Under the pieces are notes generated by a model, which was not told the origin of the DNA, made no database searches, and was given only the letters and a program-made list of their open reading frames with translations. The position numbers were made by a program, and so were the translations under genes. Of a stretch of DNA of 35,357 bases, positions 16,073 to 24,762 are shown piece by piece (position 1 is the first letter of the stretch; the number at the start of each line of letters is the position of its first letter). Source of the stretch: an uncultured Verrucomicrobiota bacterium (GTDB lineage Bacteria; Verrucomicrobiota; Verrucomicrobiia; Opitutales; Opitutaceae). The stretch covers positions 1 through 35,357 of the forward strand of contig CAIVJE010000134.1 of assembly GCA_903906135.1 (NCBI GenBank), read 5' to 3'.

Positions 16073-18208
16073 GTGATTCTACCCGCGCACATCACCCCGC
16101 TAGGAAAAAAGCGCTTCGCGTCAGCAGACCGACCGCCGATTTATGCGATGGTCGGCAATCCCAACTGCGGTAAGACCACGTTATTCAATGCGCTGACAGG
16201 GTTGCGGCAGAAGGTCGGCAATTACCCCGGGGTAACGGTGGAGAAAAAAATCGGCGAATGCTACTCGCAGCATGGCCGGCCGATGAAAATCATCGATCTC
16301 CCCGGCGCTTACTCCTTGGCGGCGCGCTCTCCTGATGAGGCGGTCTTGCGGGATGTTTTATTTGGTCGCCGCGAAGATACGCCGCAGCCGGATCGGATTA
16401 TCTGTGTGCTCGATGCGACTAATCTTGAACGTAACCTCTACCTCGTACACCAGATTCTCGACTTAGGTCGACCAGTCATCGTGGTGCTTAATATGATGGA
16501 TTTGGCCGTTAAAGCCGGCCTGCGGATTGATACTCACCAACTGGCGACTGCCCTCGGGGTGGTCGTCATTTCCTGCGCCGCGGTGAAAGGGGAGGGCTTG
16601 GTTGAACTTAAGCTCGCGATGAGTCGTAGCGATCTACCGTTAGCCCGACACCGTTGGGATGTACCCGCACCGATCGCACCGGCGGTCGCTGAATTACAAG
16701 CGTCCCTGAGCGATGCTGATGCCCAACCCCCGCTCATCGCGCGCGCCGAGGCCCTCCTGCTGCTCACTGATTTCGAGAGCGTGCGGATTGCCGGCTCTAA
16801 ACCGCTGAGCGCCCGCACCGCCGCGGTGCTGGCCACTTGGCAACAACGCTGTGCCCGTGAGGAAAGTAATTGGTCCGGCACCCTCATTCGCAGCCGTTAC
16901 GATAAGATTAATGCGCTCTGCCGCGAAGTACTGCACCGCACGCGCCCGCAAGAATTATCGGGCTCAGATCGCTTAGACGCCATCCTCGTACATTCCATTT
17001 GGGGTTGGTTGTTTTTTGGCTTCATCATGGCCACGCTCTTTTTCTCTATTTTTTCCCTGGCGGAATATCCGATGAACTGGATCGATGCTCACATCGCCGC
17101 GCTGAGCAGCGGAATTAAAAATATTCTCCCGCCAGGTGATTTGCGGGATCTCCTAACCGATGGCGTAATCGGCGGGGTCGGGGGCATCGTCGTCTTTCTT
17201 CCCCAAATTCTAATTTTGTTTTTCTTTGTAGGGTTACTCGAAAGCACGGGCTATATGGCGCGTGCGGCTTTTCTGATGGACCGCCCGATGAGCAAAGTAG
17301 GGCTGCATGGAAAATCATTTATCCCCCTCTTGGGCTCCTACGCTTGTGCTATTCCGGGGATCATGGCCACCCGTACAATCGAAAACGCCAAAGATCGGCT
17401 CGTCACAATTTTAATCGCTCCGCTGATGAGCTGCTCCGCGCGGCTCCCCGTCTATCTCCTCATGATTGCGACGCTGCTGCCCGCCGCGGCCCTCCCGGCT
17501 ACGTGGAAAGCAGGTCTCATGCTGCTCATGTATCTCTTGGGTACGCTCGGGGCTTTTGGCTTCGCTTGGCTTTTTAAGCGCACGCTCTTCAAGAGCACGC
17601 GGCCGCTAATGATTATGGAGCTGCCGGCGTATCAACCCCCACGGCTAAAGGAAATCCTCCGCCAAATGCTGGAGCGCAGCTGGCTCTTTTTAAAAAATGC
17701 TGGCACGATCATCCTCGGGATCTCGATTGTGCTGTGGTTCCTCACCACTTACCCGAAACACCCCGACCCTCAAGCCTCGGCTGATGCGCAAATCGCCGTC
17801 AGTTTTGCTGGTCAAGCGGGCCATCTCCTTGAACCAGTAATTAAGCCGCTGGGTTTTGATTGGCGCATTGGGATCGGCTTAGTGACATCATTTGCCGCGC
17901 GCGAAGTTTTTGTGAGCTCCATGGGGGTCGTTTTTGGAGTACAGGACAACGCTGCGCACGCCTTGCCGGTCCGCGATGCTTTGCGCGCGGCCCGCTGGCC
18001 CAATGGGGCCATCTTATTCACGCCACTCGTTTGTATCACCCTGATGGTTTATTATGTTTTCGCGATGCAGTGCATGAGCACGGTCGCCGTAGTAAAACGC
18101 GAAACCAATTCATGGCGCTGGCCCCTCTTTCAAATCGCCTACATGACCGGCACCGCGTGGCTCGCGTGCTTCGTCATCTATCAAATCGGTCGCGCGCTCG
18201 GTTATTAA
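16073..18208 (+). CDS. feoB: Ferrous iron transporter FeoB
   Basis: FeoB is the membrane Fe2+ transporter with an N-terminal G-protein domain. The 711-residue product has G1 GNPNCGKT (residues 28-35), the switch region NYPGVTVEKK, G3 DLPG (75-78) and G4 NMMD (140-143), then a helical linker and a polytopic domain with Gate motifs containing cysteine (YACAIPGIMATRTI and the pseudo-repeat around SCSARLPVYLLMIAT). The GTG at 16073 is preferred; the frame lacks a nearer ATG before the G domain. It is followed after 16 bp by a Cys-rich membrane peptide, completing a feoA-feoB-accessory operon. In an organism with a pyruvate:ferredoxin-type oxidoreductase, Fe2+ import for Fe-S clusters is a reasonable role. 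Confidence 0.97.
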   Translation: MILPAHITPLGKKRFASADRPPIYAMVGNPNCGKTTLFNALTGLRQKVGNYPGVTVEKKIGECYSQHGRPMKIIDLPGAYSLAARSPDEAVLRDVLFGRREDTPQPDRIICVLDATNLERNLYLVHQILDLGRPVIVVLNMMDLAVKAGLRIDTHQLATALGVVVISCAAVKGEGLVELKLAMSRSDLPLARHRWDVPAPIAPAVAELQASLSDADAQPPLIARAEALLLLTDFESVRIAGSKPLSARTAAVLATWQQRCAREESNWSGTLIRSRYDKINALCREVLHRTRPQELSGSDRLDAILVHSIWGWLFFGFIMATLFFSIFSLAEYPMNWIDAHIAALSSGIKNILPPGDLRDLLTDGVIGGVGGIVVFLPQILILFFFVGLLESTGYMARAAFLMDRPMSKVGLHGKSFIPLLGSYACAIPGIMATRTIENAKDRLVTILIAPLMSCSARLPVYLLMIATLLPAAALPATWKAGLMLLMYLLGTLGAFGFAWLFKRTLFKSTRPLMIMELPAYQPPRLKEILRQMLERSWLFLKNAGTIILGISIVLWFLTTYPKHPDPQASADAQIAVSFAGQAGHLLEPVIKPLGFDWRIGIGLVTSFAAREVFVSSMGVVFGVQDNAAHALPVRDALRAARWPNGAILFTPLVCITLMVYYVFAMQCMSTVAVVKRETNSWRWPLFQIAYMTGTAWLACFVIYQIGRALGY

Positions 18209-19762: not shown

Positions 19763-21106
19763 ATGCTTAATCGCCCCCTGTTATGCCTCGCGGCACTGCT
19801 CGGATTAACCGCTACAGTTAACGCCCAGGAGAAACCGCAGGTCTTTACCGGCGCCCAAATTATTCCGATTAGCGGGGCGCCCATCGCCCACGGCGTGCTC
19901 GTCGTCGCGGGCGGCAAGATTGTCGCCGTCGGCGCGGCCGACAAAATTGCGATTCCCGCGGGCGCCGAAATCCACGATGTCACCGGTAAAGTGCTCATGC
20001 CGGGACTCGTCGATTCCCATAGCCACGTTGGCTCTGGCAGCGGCGGCGATGGCTCCGGCCCGATCCAACCGGAAACGCGCGTCCTCGACTCGCTCGATGC
20101 GCGCAATGCCTCGATTCAAAAAGCCCGGGCCGGCGGTATCACCACCGTCAACGTGATGCCGGGCTCCGGCCACCTAATCAGCGGGCAAACGCTTTATCTG
20201 AAACTACGCGAAGCCCGCACCGTTGACGATTTATTGATCAAGCTGCCGGATGGCACTAACGCGGGCGGCCTCAAGATGGCCAATGGCACCAATTCCATGC
20301 GCGGGGCCAACGGCTTTCCCGGAACGCGCGCCAAATCGGCCGCTTTGGTCCGGGCAGAATATATTAAAGCGCAAGAATATCTGGACAAAATTAAACGCGC
20401 CAATGGCGACGCCGAAAAACTTCCGCCGCGCGACCTCGCGCTCGAGGAAATGAGTGATGTCCTCGCCGGCCAACGCATCGTCCAGAATCATACGCACCGC
20501 CACGACGATATTCTCACGGTGCTGCGCCTCGCCCAAGAATTTGGATTCAAGGTTGTTTTACACCACGTCAGCGAAGGCTGGAGGGTTGCCCCAGAAATTG
20601 CCGCGGCCCACGCGCCTTGCTCTGTGATCATGATTGATTCACCCGGTGGTAAATTAGAAACCAAAGATGCCGACTGGCGCACGCCAGCCATCTTAGAACA
20701 AGCCGGCGTGCTCGTGGGTTTTCATACAGACGACCCCATTTGCGATTCGCGGCGCTTCCTGCGCTCAGCCGCGTTGGCCGTTCGGGCGGGCATGACGCGC
20801 CAAGGGGCCCTCGCCGCAGTCACGATCGCCAACGCTAAAATTCTCGGCCTCGACGCACGCGTCGGCTCACTGGAACCAGGCAAAGATGCTGACTTCATTG
20901 TGCTCTCCGCTGATCCATTGAGTGTCTATGCACACATTGAGCAAACCTGGGTTGAAGGAACCAAGGTTTTCGATCTCTCCCGCCCAGCAGATCATCTTTA
21001 TGCAGTCGGCGGGGCGGGCGCCGGTGATTCCCGCCACGCCCAGCTCTGTTGTTTCACCAGTGCATGGGACTTAATCGCAAACGCCAATCATGGAGGTGAA
21101 CAATGA
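19763..21106 (+). CDS. Exported amidohydrolase-family protein with intact metal site
   Basis: A 447-residue amidohydrolase (imidazolonepropionase-like branch). A signal peptide (MLNRPLLCLAALLGLTATVNA) supports export. The beta-barrel metal site is largely intact: HSH at residues 86-88, further histidines in HTHRH (243-247) and LHH (267-268), and HTDDP (321-325) with the usual acidic ligand. The C-terminal block RVGSLEPGKDADFIVLSADPL is family-typical. Substrate is unknown; relatives act on cyclic amides, peptides or related compounds. The ATG at 19763 fits the signal peptide; an earlier in-frame start would add 12 residues. The gene overlaps the next one by ATGA, and the two are paralogues. 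Confidence 0.88.
   Translation: MLNRPLLCLAALLGLTATVNAQEKPQVFTGAQIIPISGAPIAHGVLVVAGGKIVAVGAADKIAIPAGAEIHDVTGKVLMPGLVDSHSHVGSGSGGDGSGPIQPETRVLDSLDARNASIQKARAGGITTVNVMPGSGHLISGQTLYLKLREARTVDDLLIKLPDGTNAGGLKMANGTNSMRGANGFPGTRAKSAALVRAEYIKAQEYLDKIKRANGDAEKLPPRDLALEEMSDVLAGQRIVQNHTHRHDDILTVLRLAQEFGFKVVLHHVSEGWRVAPEIAAAHAPCSVIMIDSPGGKLETKDADWRTPAILEQAGVLVGFHTDDPICDSRRFLRSAALAVRAGMTRQGALAAVTIANAKILGLDARVGSLEPGKDADFIVLSADPLSVYAHIEQTWVEGTKVFDLSRPADHLYAVGGAGAGDSRHAQLCCFTSAWDLIANANHGGEQ
21092..21098 (+). promoter_or_regulatory. Strong Shine-Dalgarno site before the second amidohydrolase
   Basis: GGAGGTG lies four bases before the ATG at 21103. It is one of the few clear Shine-Dalgarno sites in the window and fixes the start inside the end of the upstream gene, suggesting tight stoichiometric translation of the pair. 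Confidence 0.7.
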
Positions 21107-22341
21107 AAATAATTACTCGCTTTAGCTTACTGGTCACTTGGCTCATCGCCTTGGGCGGCGCGCACGCAGAAAATATCGCGGTCCTGGGCGCAACTATCTA
21201 CCCGATGGCCGGTGCACCGCTAAAAGACGGCGTTATTCTGATGAGTGATGGTAAAATCACCGCGCTGGGCCCCAAGGTTTCCGTAAAAATTCCCGAGGGC
21301 TACCGCATCCTGCAAGCCGCCGTCGTTACGCCTGGATTGATTGATGCCCATGCTACCGTCGGCCTCTCGGGCTTGCTCAACCAAGCTCAGGATCAAGATA
21401 TGTTAGAAAAATCTTCGGCCGTGCAACCTGAACTCCGCGCCCTGGATGCCTATAACGCCAAAGATCCTCTCGTCAGCTGGGTGCGCTCTTACGGTGTCAC
21501 CACCGTCAATACCGGTCATGCCCCCGCCGCACTGATCTCTGGGCAAACCATGATTGTGAAAACATTTGGCCGGACGGCTGATGAGGATGTGATTAATCCT
21601 GCCGCGATGACAGCCGTTACGCTGGGTCGCAACGGTCTGACTAACGCCGAAGGTGGGTCCGCCGCGAGCAAATCACCAGGCAACCGCTCCAAAGCGGTCG
21701 CGATGTTGCGCGCTGAACTGATCAAAGCTCAAGAGTACGCCAAAAAGCGCGATGCTAAAGACGAGAGCAAGCGACCGGCCCGGGATTTAAAAACTGAAAC
21801 CCTCCTCCGTGCTCTGACTGGGGTGCAGCCGCTGTTAATTACGGCTAATCGTCAGCAGGATATTATCTCCGCCCTCCGCCTCGCCCAAGAATTTAAGCTT
21901 AAAATTGTTCTCGATGGCTGCGCTGATGCGCCGATGGTTTTAGCCCAAATTAAAGCCAGTGGGTTTCCCGTCATTGTGCACCCCACGATGCAACGCAGCT
22001 ATGAAGACATGGAAAATCTCAGCGTAGAAACTGCCGGAAAACTTCATGCGGCCGGCATCCCCATTGCCTTACAGAGCAGCTATGAAGCCTATGTGCCAAA
22101 AACCCGCGTCGTGTTATTTGAAGCAGCGGTCGCGGCTGCCCATGGCCTCGGCTTTGAAGCCGCCCTCGCCAGCATTACTAGTGGCGCGGCCCAATTACTT
22201 GGCATCGCCGATCGCACCGGTTCCCTCGTCGTGGGTAAAGATGCCGATCTGGCCCTCTATGATGGCGACCCTTTTGAATACACAAGCCACTGCACTGGCA
22301 CGATTGTGGGTGGGATCGTCTTCGCCGACGGTGCGCACTAA
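21103..22341 (+). CDS. Amidohydrolase-family paralogue lacking metal ligands
   Basis: A 412-residue exported paralogue of the gene before it (signal peptide MKIITRFSLLVTWLIALGGAHA). The fold is clear: it has the same N-terminal barrel and the same C-terminal pattern DRTGSLVVGKDADLALYDGDPF. The metal ligands are nearly all replaced. The HxH motif is HAT (H83, T85) instead of HSH, HTHRH becomes TANRQ (247-251), LHH becomes LDG (270-272) and the HTDDP loop becomes QSSYE (324-328). A catalytic amidohydrolase reaction is therefore unlikely. It may instead be a regulatory or structural partner of the active copy, for instance in a hetero-oligomer. The ATGA overlap with its partner and the strong Shine-Dalgarno support co-translation. 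Confidence 0.85.
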   Translation: MKIITRFSLLVTWLIALGGAHAENIAVLGATIYPMAGAPLKDGVILMSDGKITALGPKVSVKIPEGYRILQAAVVTPGLIDAHATVGLSGLLNQAQDQDMLEKSSAVQPELRALDAYNAKDPLVSWVRSYGVTTVNTGHAPAALISGQTMIVKTFGRTADEDVINPAAMTAVTLGRNGLTNAEGGSAASKSPGNRSKAVAMLRAELIKAQEYAKKRDAKDESKRPARDLKTETLLRALTGVQPLLITANRQQDIISALRLAQEFKLKIVLDGCADAPMVLAQIKASGFPVIVHPTMQRSYEDMENLSVETAGKLHAAGIPIALQSSYEAYVPKTRVVLFEAAVAAAHGLGFEAALASITSGAAQLLGIADRTGSLVVGKDADLALYDGDPFEYTSHCTGTIVGGIVFADGAH

Positions 22342-23428: not shown

Positions 23429-24073
23429 CTAAGCGCGAATCCACTGCACCAACTCCAGCAGTAACGCCGTTGCGGCCTCCCCGAGAAAAATAAAATAAAG
23501 TACGCCCAGCGCAAAGATAAGATAACCCGCGAGAATAAAGAGGCCATCGCGCTCCAGCAATCCGGCGGCGACCAATAAAATAGCCCAAGCCGGGAAGGAA
23601 TTCGTAAAAGGAATCGGGATCGGCAACACCAACACCAGCGCCGCGATCAGCAGCAAGACCGCGTGCAGTTGCACTAACCCTGGCGTGTCGGTTAAAAAAG
23701 TAAGGCGGGGCCGGATTAGTTTTTCAATAATCCGAATCGTTTTCTCGGCGACCGTGAAAAGCTTTCCAAAAAAACCGGGCGGCAATACCTTGCGCTGCAG
23801 CTTCATCGACAACCAGGGGCGCTGACCCAACGTCAACCGGAGGGCGATCAGGGCAATCGCTAATCCAAAGGGGGTAGATAAACCCGGCAACGGAATGGGC
23901 GTAATAAAAGGGAGGGCCAACAATAGCACCAGCAGCGTGTAGGCCCGTCCGCCAAGCGTGTAGATAACCTCCCGCAGCGTTAATGCACCCAGAGCGGAGC
24001 GATTGCGCAAATCAGCCAACTCCTCGGATAACTTGCGGGGTGGATTCGTGTTAAATTTTGAATTTTTTTTCAT
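23429..24073 (-). CDS. ExoD-family membrane protein
   Basis: A 214-residue integral membrane protein of the ExoD family. It opens with a charged N-terminus (KLSEELADLRNRSALGALTLREV) and has several membrane segments, with the characteristic ALPFITPIPLPGLSTPFGLAIALIALRL (residues 53-80) and a related LVLPIPIPFTNSFPAWAILLVAAGLLERDGL in the second half. ExoD was first linked to exopolysaccharide production in Rhizobium, but its biochemical activity is unknown. The start overlaps the stop of queE by four bases, so it is translated from the queC-queE transcript. Whether it has any queuosine role is unclear. Confidence 0.88.
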   Translation of the reverse strand: MKKNSKFNTNPPRKLSEELADLRNRSALGALTLREVIYTLGGRAYTLLVLLLALPFITPIPLPGLSTPFGLAIALIALRLTLGQRPWLSMKLQRKVLPPGFFGKLFTVAEKTIRIIEKLIRPRLTFLTDTPGLVQLHAVLLLIAALVLVLPIPIPFTNSFPAWAILLVAAGLLERDGLFILAGYLIFALGVLYFIFLGEAATALLLELVQWIRA

Positions 24074-24762
24074 GTGCCGCGTTTATTCCCATAAAGTTCC
24101 ACGTGCAGGCGCGGAGCGTAACGATAGCCGCGCGTCTTGCATAATTCACTTAACCAAACGGCACGGGCCCGCAAGACCTCGACCGTGGTTCCCTCCGGCA
24201 TCAGCAATACCTTGGCCCGAGGAATCTCCCGCCCCAACGAAGCCAGCAACGTCTCTATTTCTATAAGATCCGTTTCTTGAGCGACCACAAACTTGAGTTG
24301 ATAGCCCCCGCGATCGAGCCAAGCCCGCACCACTTCCGGCTGCCAGCGCAAGTTCTCGTGTTTCCGGCGCCAAGTGTCATCGAGCCGCTCATCCGGGGAG
24401 GAATTTTTTAGCTTCGGACTCAGCGAGGCGAGATCGCACGCGATCCCCGTCGGGGCTATCGTCGCCGCTGTCTCTATTGTGATATGATAATCTAATCTTT
24501 TTAGCTCGGTCGCGAGTGCATGAATATCTTTCGCCATCATCGGTTCGCCTCCGGTTAGCACCACATGCCGCGCAGGATGACAGCGGACGGCCGCCACAAT
24601 CTCGCCTACCGTCAGCTGCTTTCCTTCCGGCTGCCATGAGGCATAAGGCGTATCACACCAATTGCAGCGAAGATTGCATCCACTCGTGCGGACAAAAACT
24701 GACGGTACGCCGGTTAACTCGCCTTCGCCTTGGAGCGAATAAAATATTTCAGATATCAACAT
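24070..24762 (-). CDS. queE: 7-carboxy-7-deazaguanine synthase QueE
   Basis: QueE is a radical SAM enzyme that converts 6-carboxytetrahydropterin to 7-carboxy-7-deazaguanine in queuosine and deazapurine synthesis. The 230-residue product starts MLISEIFYSLQGEGELTG, and the cluster motif is SGCNLRCNWCDTPY with C29, C33 and C36 (CxxxCxxC). The GGEP-type motif is TGGEPMM. The ATG at 24762 fits the family start and is preceded by CCTCCCTTA. It lies 62 bp downstream of queC, and exoD overlaps its stop. queD and queF are not in the window. Confidence 0.96.
   Translation of the reverse strand: MLISEIFYSLQGEGELTGVPSVFVRTSGCNLRCNWCDTPYASWQPEGKQLTVGEIVAAVRCHPARHVVLTGGEPMMAKDIHALATELKRLDYHITIETAATIAPTGIACDLASLSPKLKNSSPDERLDDTWRRKHENLRWQPEVVRAWLDRGGYQLKFVVAQETDLIEIETLLASLGREIPRAKVLLMPEGTTVEVLRARAVWLSELCKTRGYRYAPRLHVELYGNKRGT

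Follow-up and report, generated by a model that had tools for sequence, protein, structure and literature searches.

Two overlapping amidohydrolase genes

We analyzed a 35,357-nucleotide stretch of DNA (hereafter the window), corresponding to positions 1 to 35,357 of contig CAIVJE010000134.1 (assembly GCA_903906135.1), from an uncultured Verrucomicrobiota bacterium of the family Opitutaceae. Its forward strand carries two overlapping genes, here called E and S, which encode an amidohydrolase with a full set of metal ligands and a paralogue without that metal site; we propose that the two proteins are the catalytic and the non-catalytic subunit of one exported enzyme. A preliminary description of this DNA had correctly placed both genes, their ATGA overlap and a strong Shine-Dalgarno sequence before the second gene, which we locate as GGAGGT:

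19763–21106, forward strand: E, amidohydrolase with the full metal-ligand set, 447 aa, putatively exported
19763–19825, forward strand: putative signal peptide of E, residues 1–21, ending in VNA and followed by QE, judged by eye
21092–21097, forward strand: GGAGGT Shine-Dalgarno sequence, 5 bases ahead of the S start
21103–21106, forward strand: ATGA overlap, S start and E stop
21103–22341, forward strand: S, metal-less paralogue of E, 412 aa, candidate non-catalytic subunit

The reading frame of E opens further upstream, at TTG 19727. The ATGA overlap probably couples the translation of the two genes. On visual inspection, both N termini resemble signal peptides, with A-x-A followed by Q or E. 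A crude automatic signal-peptide rule was dropped: it was positive for 84 of the 90 E rows and 89 of the 94 S rows in our alignments (86 and 90 distinct loci, respectively), and also for 72 of 90 shuffled N termini. Because the rule failed this shuffle control, we infer the export of E and S from their N-terminal sequences.

The alignment of E with S spans 391 columns, with 35% identity (E-value 3e-56). Both are members of Amidohydro_1 (PF01979; cut-off 29.7 bits) and Amidohydro_3 (PF07969; cut-off 25 bits), with scores of 71 and 67.2 bits for E and of 49.1 and 39.6 bits for S. The closest solved structure to both is a Thermotoga maritima amidohydrolase, 3ooq (phmmer, 2e-63 for E and 6e-41 for S). 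The predicted model of E (predicted local distance difference test [pLDDT] 87, predicted template modelling score [pTM] 0.86) matches 3ooq with a Z score of 49.0 and a root-mean-square deviation of 2.1 over 373 aligned residues, and that of S (pLDDT 82, pTM 0.82) with a Z score of 40.4 and a deviation of 2.3 over 348 residues. As the S model matches 3ooq, the amidohydrolase fold is retained in S according to the prediction. We propose that E belongs to the clade of 3ooq, with which it has common ligands in the alignments; S is without them. The 396-aa 3ooq protein does not have the C-terminal tail of E, the match stopping at E residue 404–406. The L-Lys/L-Arg carboxypeptidase Cc2672 (3mtw) is a neighbouring amidohydrolase, with a Z score of 26.9 against the E model. 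When the source genome was searched with S, the only matches were E and S; a search with E gave 7 matches, and besides E and S those listed include a single short, weak hit (2.1e-7). The closest named record among the matches listed is an Opitutaceae metagenome-assembled genome (MAG), with E and S each 97% identical.

The metal site is complete in E and lost in S

We scored five positions, H86, H88, H243, H268 and D323 in E numbering, which belong to the HxH motif, the beta-5 and beta-6 histidines and the beta-8 aspartate that we take to be the amidohydrolase metal ligands:

20018–20026, forward strand: H86-S-H88 of E (HxH, beta-1), His in 88 of 90 E rows, the 2 gaps being contig-edge fragments
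20489–20500, forward strand: H243-T-H245-R246 of E (beta-5), H243, H245 and R246 in 90 of 90 E rows
20564–20566, forward strand: H268 of E (beta-6), His in 89 of 90 E rows, the 1 gap being the broken locus L080
20729–20734, forward strand: D323-D324 of E (beta-8), D323 in 89 of 90 E rows, the 1 gap again being L080

All five ligands are present in 87 of the 90 E rows, and the remaining three (the two contig-edge fragments and L080) are without the columns concerned. None of the 94 S rows has more than one ligand; 70 have one and 24 have none. Judged by this ligand set, E is predicted to be a catalytic metal-dependent amidohydrolase and S is not. The strings given in the preliminary description, HSH, HTHRH, LHH and HTDD in E and HAT, TANRQ, LDG and QSSY in S, are all present. 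Its statement that S had lost nearly the whole metal site while keeping fold and length needs a partial correction: four of the five positions are lost and the model matches 3ooq, but the first HxH histidine is kept and a 43-residue tail of E is absent from S.

That histidine raises the alternative that S still has enzyme activity, at a rebuilt site in which other residues bind a metal. At H86, 68 of the 94 S rows keep His, and at D323 all 94 have a Glu in place of Asp. However, the first His is Arg in 26 rows, the Glu is matched to D323 across an alignment gap, and both the second HxH His (Thr in 61 rows, Val in 28) and the beta-6 His (Gly in 85, Ser in 9) are lost in all 94; at H243, His is found in 2 rows and Thr in 77. 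We therefore consider a rebuilt site very unlikely.

E and S occur together in three phyla

We sampled 100 genomes from the family to which the window belongs. S (matches at 60% identity or more) was found in 14, including the window's own, and E (65% or more) in the identical 14, always directly 5′ of S. The junction was ATGA in 11 of them and TAATG in 1, with spacings of +3 and +10 in two. No internal stop was listed in any S or E of these 14 genomes, and the search would have revealed broken copies, because it reads through stops.

When GTDB-species genomes were scanned with the S alignment, at least 432 relatives were confirmed; the 80 best-scoring were kept. These 80 loci lie in Verrucomicrobiota (38), Acidobacteriota (22) and Planctomycetota (20), so that the gene pair, which the preliminary description had proposed to seek in other Verrucomicrobiota, is found there and in two further phyla. 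E lies directly 5′ of S in 77 of the 80: 76 by open reading frame (ORF) search and L116, where the end of E is at a contig edge. In L084 and L127 the contig begins at S, and E sits at the edge of another contig of the same genome; in the L084 genome this E is followed by the beginning of an S. As the genomes of L116, L084, L127 and L129 (see below) could each be traced to an E, all 80 genomes with a best S locus also hold E. At all 80 loci, query residues 32–396 or more are covered in one frame.

Across 85 loci, the distance between the E stop and the S start was −4 in 45 and −1 in 8; it fell within −50 to +30 in 74 and exceeded 100 in 5. A Shine-Dalgarno-like motif precedes 59 of 86 S starts, whereas shuffled sequences give an expectation of 25; for E, 26 of 83 starts have one. 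Four duplicate loci (L053, L054, L060 and L061, equal to L072, L077, L085 and L086) were removed for these distances and for the substitution-rate, distance-correlation and face-conservation analyses below, and retained in the 90 E and 94 S ligand rows. In L080 (2845–5694), E is spread over two frames and S is open, possibly owing to a MAG assembly error; this locus was omitted from the start/stop distances, the substitution rates and the distance correlation.

S is under purifying selection

Loss of the ligands would also be expected if S were a decaying duplicate. The ratio of nonsynonymous to synonymous substitution rates (dN/dS) argues otherwise. For the nine least-diverged locus pairs it ranged from 0.049 to 0.147 for E and from 0.059 to 0.145 for S, and between the window and L070 it was 0.103 for E and 0.081 for S. 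The median dN(S)/dN(E) over 3570 pairs was 1.13. The dN/dS values of 820 wider pairs (medians, 0.32 for E and 0.36 for S) were not used, because they are inflated by saturated dS. That S is under purifying selection comparable to that on E is thus well supported at the sequence level. With open frames in the 14 family genomes and at the 80 best loci, dN/dS far below 1 and a spread over three phyla, we rejected decay, to which we give practically no credence. Selection on the second copy, for which the preliminary description had argued, is borne out by these values together with the lack of internal stops in the 14 genomes and of any S row with more than one ligand. Second copies with all ligands, often frameshifted second copies and absence of the second copy were looked for among the relatives and not found.

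Active and metal-less domains are fused in a sister triad

A second module was present in 14 of the 100 family genomes, where an ORF of 797–1632 aa with two amidohydrolase domains lies beside a separate third domain. In five such modules read residue by residue, the first (TA) and third (TC) domains are without ligands and the middle one (TB) has them, and a TC start lies 4–14 bases ahead of the point where the TB frame closes. The three domains occur as separate ORFs in Acidobacteriota (L195, L198, L199 and L200; L201 and L202 are partial, as the sequence examined ends there) and as a TA-TB fusion followed by TC in Planctomycetota (L194, L196 and L197). Also in Planctomycetota, single ORFs of 1384–1422 aa join three domains in the order metal-less, active, metal-less (L191, 998–5264; L192, 1018–5170; L193, 756–4932; these and the array coordinates below are given on the reading strand). 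In total, 8 TA-TB and 3 TA-TB-TC ORFs were examined. TB has five of five ligands in 12 of 12 cases and in 5 of 5 of a further-read set, TA has 0–2 and TC 0–1. Such covalent fusions of live and dead domains are the best indirect evidence that paralogues of this kind touch.

In a quick tree every role formed one clade, with TA and TC as sisters and S apart from them. An approximately unbiased (AU) test of a tree holding all metal-less copies in one clade gave p = 0.637, the held tree being slightly better. As this tree is not rejected, a single old loss of the metal site remains compatible with the data; several independent losses, which we had considered, are not upheld and we do not claim repeated loss. 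X_L034 and X_L037 were left out of the trees and counts, and X_L038 also out of the AU tree. The profile models behind the reading of triads and arrays were built on roughly half of the rows for E and S.

In three Planctomycetota genomes, 7–8 ORFs with 8–9 domains form collinear arrays (L203, 391–13183; L204, 28–11256, possibly cut by the end of the sequence examined; L205, 147–12963), and most positions have counterparts in the other arrays. Each array contains exactly one domain with all five ligands, and the others have 0–2, although these proteins are far diverged and their ligands are read less surely. These arrays are more striking than the window's own pair, which is the least elaborate of these modules.

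Similar genes were also seen on plasmids. A Qipengyuania citrea plasmid has an ATGA-overlapping dyad with the ligand columns HHHHD and ITAGS, a Novosphingobium plasmid record a similar pair with HHHHD and AQVGV, and a Cytobacillus plasmid record a lone amidohydrolase copy with full ligands. The Qipengyuania region (L209, 1365–6915) comprises a GntR regulator, a POT-family peptide transporter, the active and metal-less amidohydrolases and an FKBP isomerase. On a Hymenobacter volaticus plasmid (L210, 1805–6226), TA-TB of a triad is split over several frames, by decay or sequencing error, and followed by a TC-like ORF.

Constraint on the catalytic face, and the tail of E

We defined the catalytic face as the residues just after the eight barrel strands, picked from the secondary structure of the models. 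In E (86 rows), conservation was 0.81 on this face and 0.71 elsewhere (p = 3.6e-6), whereas in S (90 rows) it was 0.70 and 0.72 (p = 0.64), that is, without excess. The excess was also found in the active TB (p = 0.0035, 17 rows) and in lone active relatives (p = 8e-4, 5 rows), and was absent from the metal-less TA (p = 0.99, 17 rows) and TC (p = 0.97, 15 rows). At the level of sequence conservation, this contrast between active and metal-less members is the pattern to be expected if catalysis was lost and the fold kept.

Two further regions may take part in pairing:

20975–21103, forward strand: C-terminal tail of E, residues 405–447 (43 aa), found neither in S nor in lone active relatives
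21397–21459, forward strand: S loop, residues 99–119, with many conserved positions and a model confidence below 50 pLDDT, a candidate contact region

The tail has a median length of 36 aa in the 90 E rows, with CC in 67 of them, and of 3 aa in the 94 S rows. The five lone active relatives have all five ligands and a tail of 0–1 aa, and the P2 query gave a single match in the genomes of four of them. Among the TB domains, 13 have no TC fused to them and are not truncated; their tails range from at least 35 to 90 aa, some being shortened by the chosen domain ends. The tail of the partnered active members is a candidate docking element.

E and S as subunits of one enzyme

Considering the strict co-occurrence of E and S, the geometry of their overlap and the active/metal-less fusions in the sister triad, we propose that E and S are the catalytic and non-catalytic subunits of one exported heteromeric hydrolase, a reading to which we assign a probability of roughly 0.7. 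In this model, catalysis would fall to the metal-dependent E, and S would be a paralogue that lost its metal site and was retained as a non-catalytic partner. ATGA-coupled translation would keep the two in step. S would pair with E through an inherited oligomer surface, probably with participation of the E tail and of the flexible conserved S loop, and would take up positions in an oligomer that, in lone relatives, is presumably made of identical chains. In the resulting complex, S may activate E, being needed for its assembly, stability or full activity.

Several observations weigh against this proposal. In L129 (genome G275), 5.5 kb separate E from S, although both lie on one contig and strand; together with the 5 of 85 loci separated by more than 100 bases, this indicates that tight overlap is not essential. 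Because the 80 loci are the best-scoring of at least 432, broken copies would be under-represented among them, a bias from which the 14-genome set is free. The E and S distance matrices correlate (r = 0.84, with none of 2000 permutations as high), but a common species history would predict such a correlation too, and the nearest neighbour is the same in both genes at only 48 of 85 loci. Finally, the S loops after beta-2, beta-7 and beta-8 are strongly conserved (TGHxP, HPtMxR and QsgyExYVPKtR) and could form a ligand site of S itself.

These loops bear on the alternative that S has its own function in the same pathway, as a metal-independent enzyme or ligand binder, the coupling to E reflecting co-regulation only. 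H139, H293, E328, Y330, K333 and R335 of S are conserved in at least 97% of the 90 S rows and directly follow barrel strands in the model, the part of the barrel in which active sites are located. However, S shows no overall excess of conservation on its catalytic face, unlike E, TB and the lone active relatives, and the fusions of metal-less with active domains favour contact. An independent function is in our view improbable, although it is the rival to be taken most seriously. S might also bind E only transiently, as a sink, chaperone or regulator, for example as a folding helper, in metal insertion or as an inhibitor. The genetics of such a binder would be identical to those of a subunit, but covalent fusions as in the triad are more natural for stable subunits, and we give transient binding little weight.

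Beyond the pair, we tentatively suggest that hetero-oligomers arose in an old amidohydrolase lineage through the addition of metal-less barrels to one active barrel: one in the dyad, two in the triad, and seven or eight in the Planctomycetota arrays, where a single fully liganded copy sits among collinear metal-less paralogues. The dead barrels might form a ring or cage of defined order round the live site, a soluble counterpart of hetero-oligomeric paralogue rings; this is a speculative picture that we doubt more than we believe.

Neighbouring genes and possible substrate

In flanks of about 4 kb (some longer), 74 clusters of neighbouring genes occurred in three or more loci; 4 of them span more than one phylum, each in at most 5 loci. 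As no neighbours are widely common, the E-S pair stands alone, and an attempt to derive its function from neighbouring genes was given up, no cross-phylum cluster occurring in more than 5 loci. In the window, a FeoB-like iron transporter (16073–18208, upstream) and a QueE-like radical SAM protein (24070–24762, downstream), both recognized by eye from their translations, showed no sign of a link to the pair. Unrelated ORFs lie between the widely separated E and S of G275 (L190, G275:C131), one of them resembling a glycerophosphodiester phosphodiesterase by eye.

The best NCBIfam match of E was NF051886 (Xaa-Pro dipeptidase), at 78.9 bits against a cut-off of 500, and imidazolonepropionase TIGR01224 scored 56.7 bits against a cut-off of 298, so that E is a member of neither. 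As E falls below the NF051886 cut-off, a peptide substrate is only a lead. By analogy with distant relatives, our best guess is a small peptide or an N-acyl amide; the peptidase-like nature of those relatives and the peptide transporter beside the Qipengyuania pair are weak hints of a small peptide.

Known parallels and implications

Heteromers of an enzyme with a dead paralogue are already known. The published accounts describe activation of a live copy by its dead paralogue through a heteromer for Trypanosoma AdoMetDC and its prozyme (PMC5201418) and for deoxyhypusine synthase (DHS) of trypanosomatids (PMC3663545). E-S resembles these cases, as described there, in the conserved loss of catalytic residues from a paralogue kept beside the enzyme, and their mode of activation is the working model put forward here for the pair; it differs in that those are other enzymes, from trypanosomatids, whose activation was proved, whereas E-S is known from sequence. 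In Pseudomonas aeruginosa aspartate transcarbamoylase (ATCase), an inactive dihydroorotase homologue (pDHO) is required for activity of its partner, with which it forms a stoichiometric heteromer, as reported (PMC7053772). The likeness is that of an inactive amidohydrolase-type chain with an enzyme partner; on the same account, the partner of pDHO is a transcarbamoylase of another fold, whereas that of S is an active paralogue, itself an amidohydrolase. No report of an amidohydrolase E-S pair, triad or array was found in literature searched at the level of listings and abstracts, nor any paper on 3OOQ/TM0814 in listings.

If S is an obligatory subunit, an assay of E alone would return a false "inactive", and plain "amidohydrolase" annotations would be wrong; the metal-less partners of Qipengyuania (WP_301643188.1) and Hymenobacter are annotated merely as "amidohydrolase" or "amidohydrolase family protein". 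Taken together, the dyad, the separate and fused forms of the triad and the arrays would form a natural series from a homo-oligomeric enzyme to a hetero-oligomer with dead subunits, found in bacteria whose genes are easily co-expressed and, for S, with at least 432 relatives to draw on.

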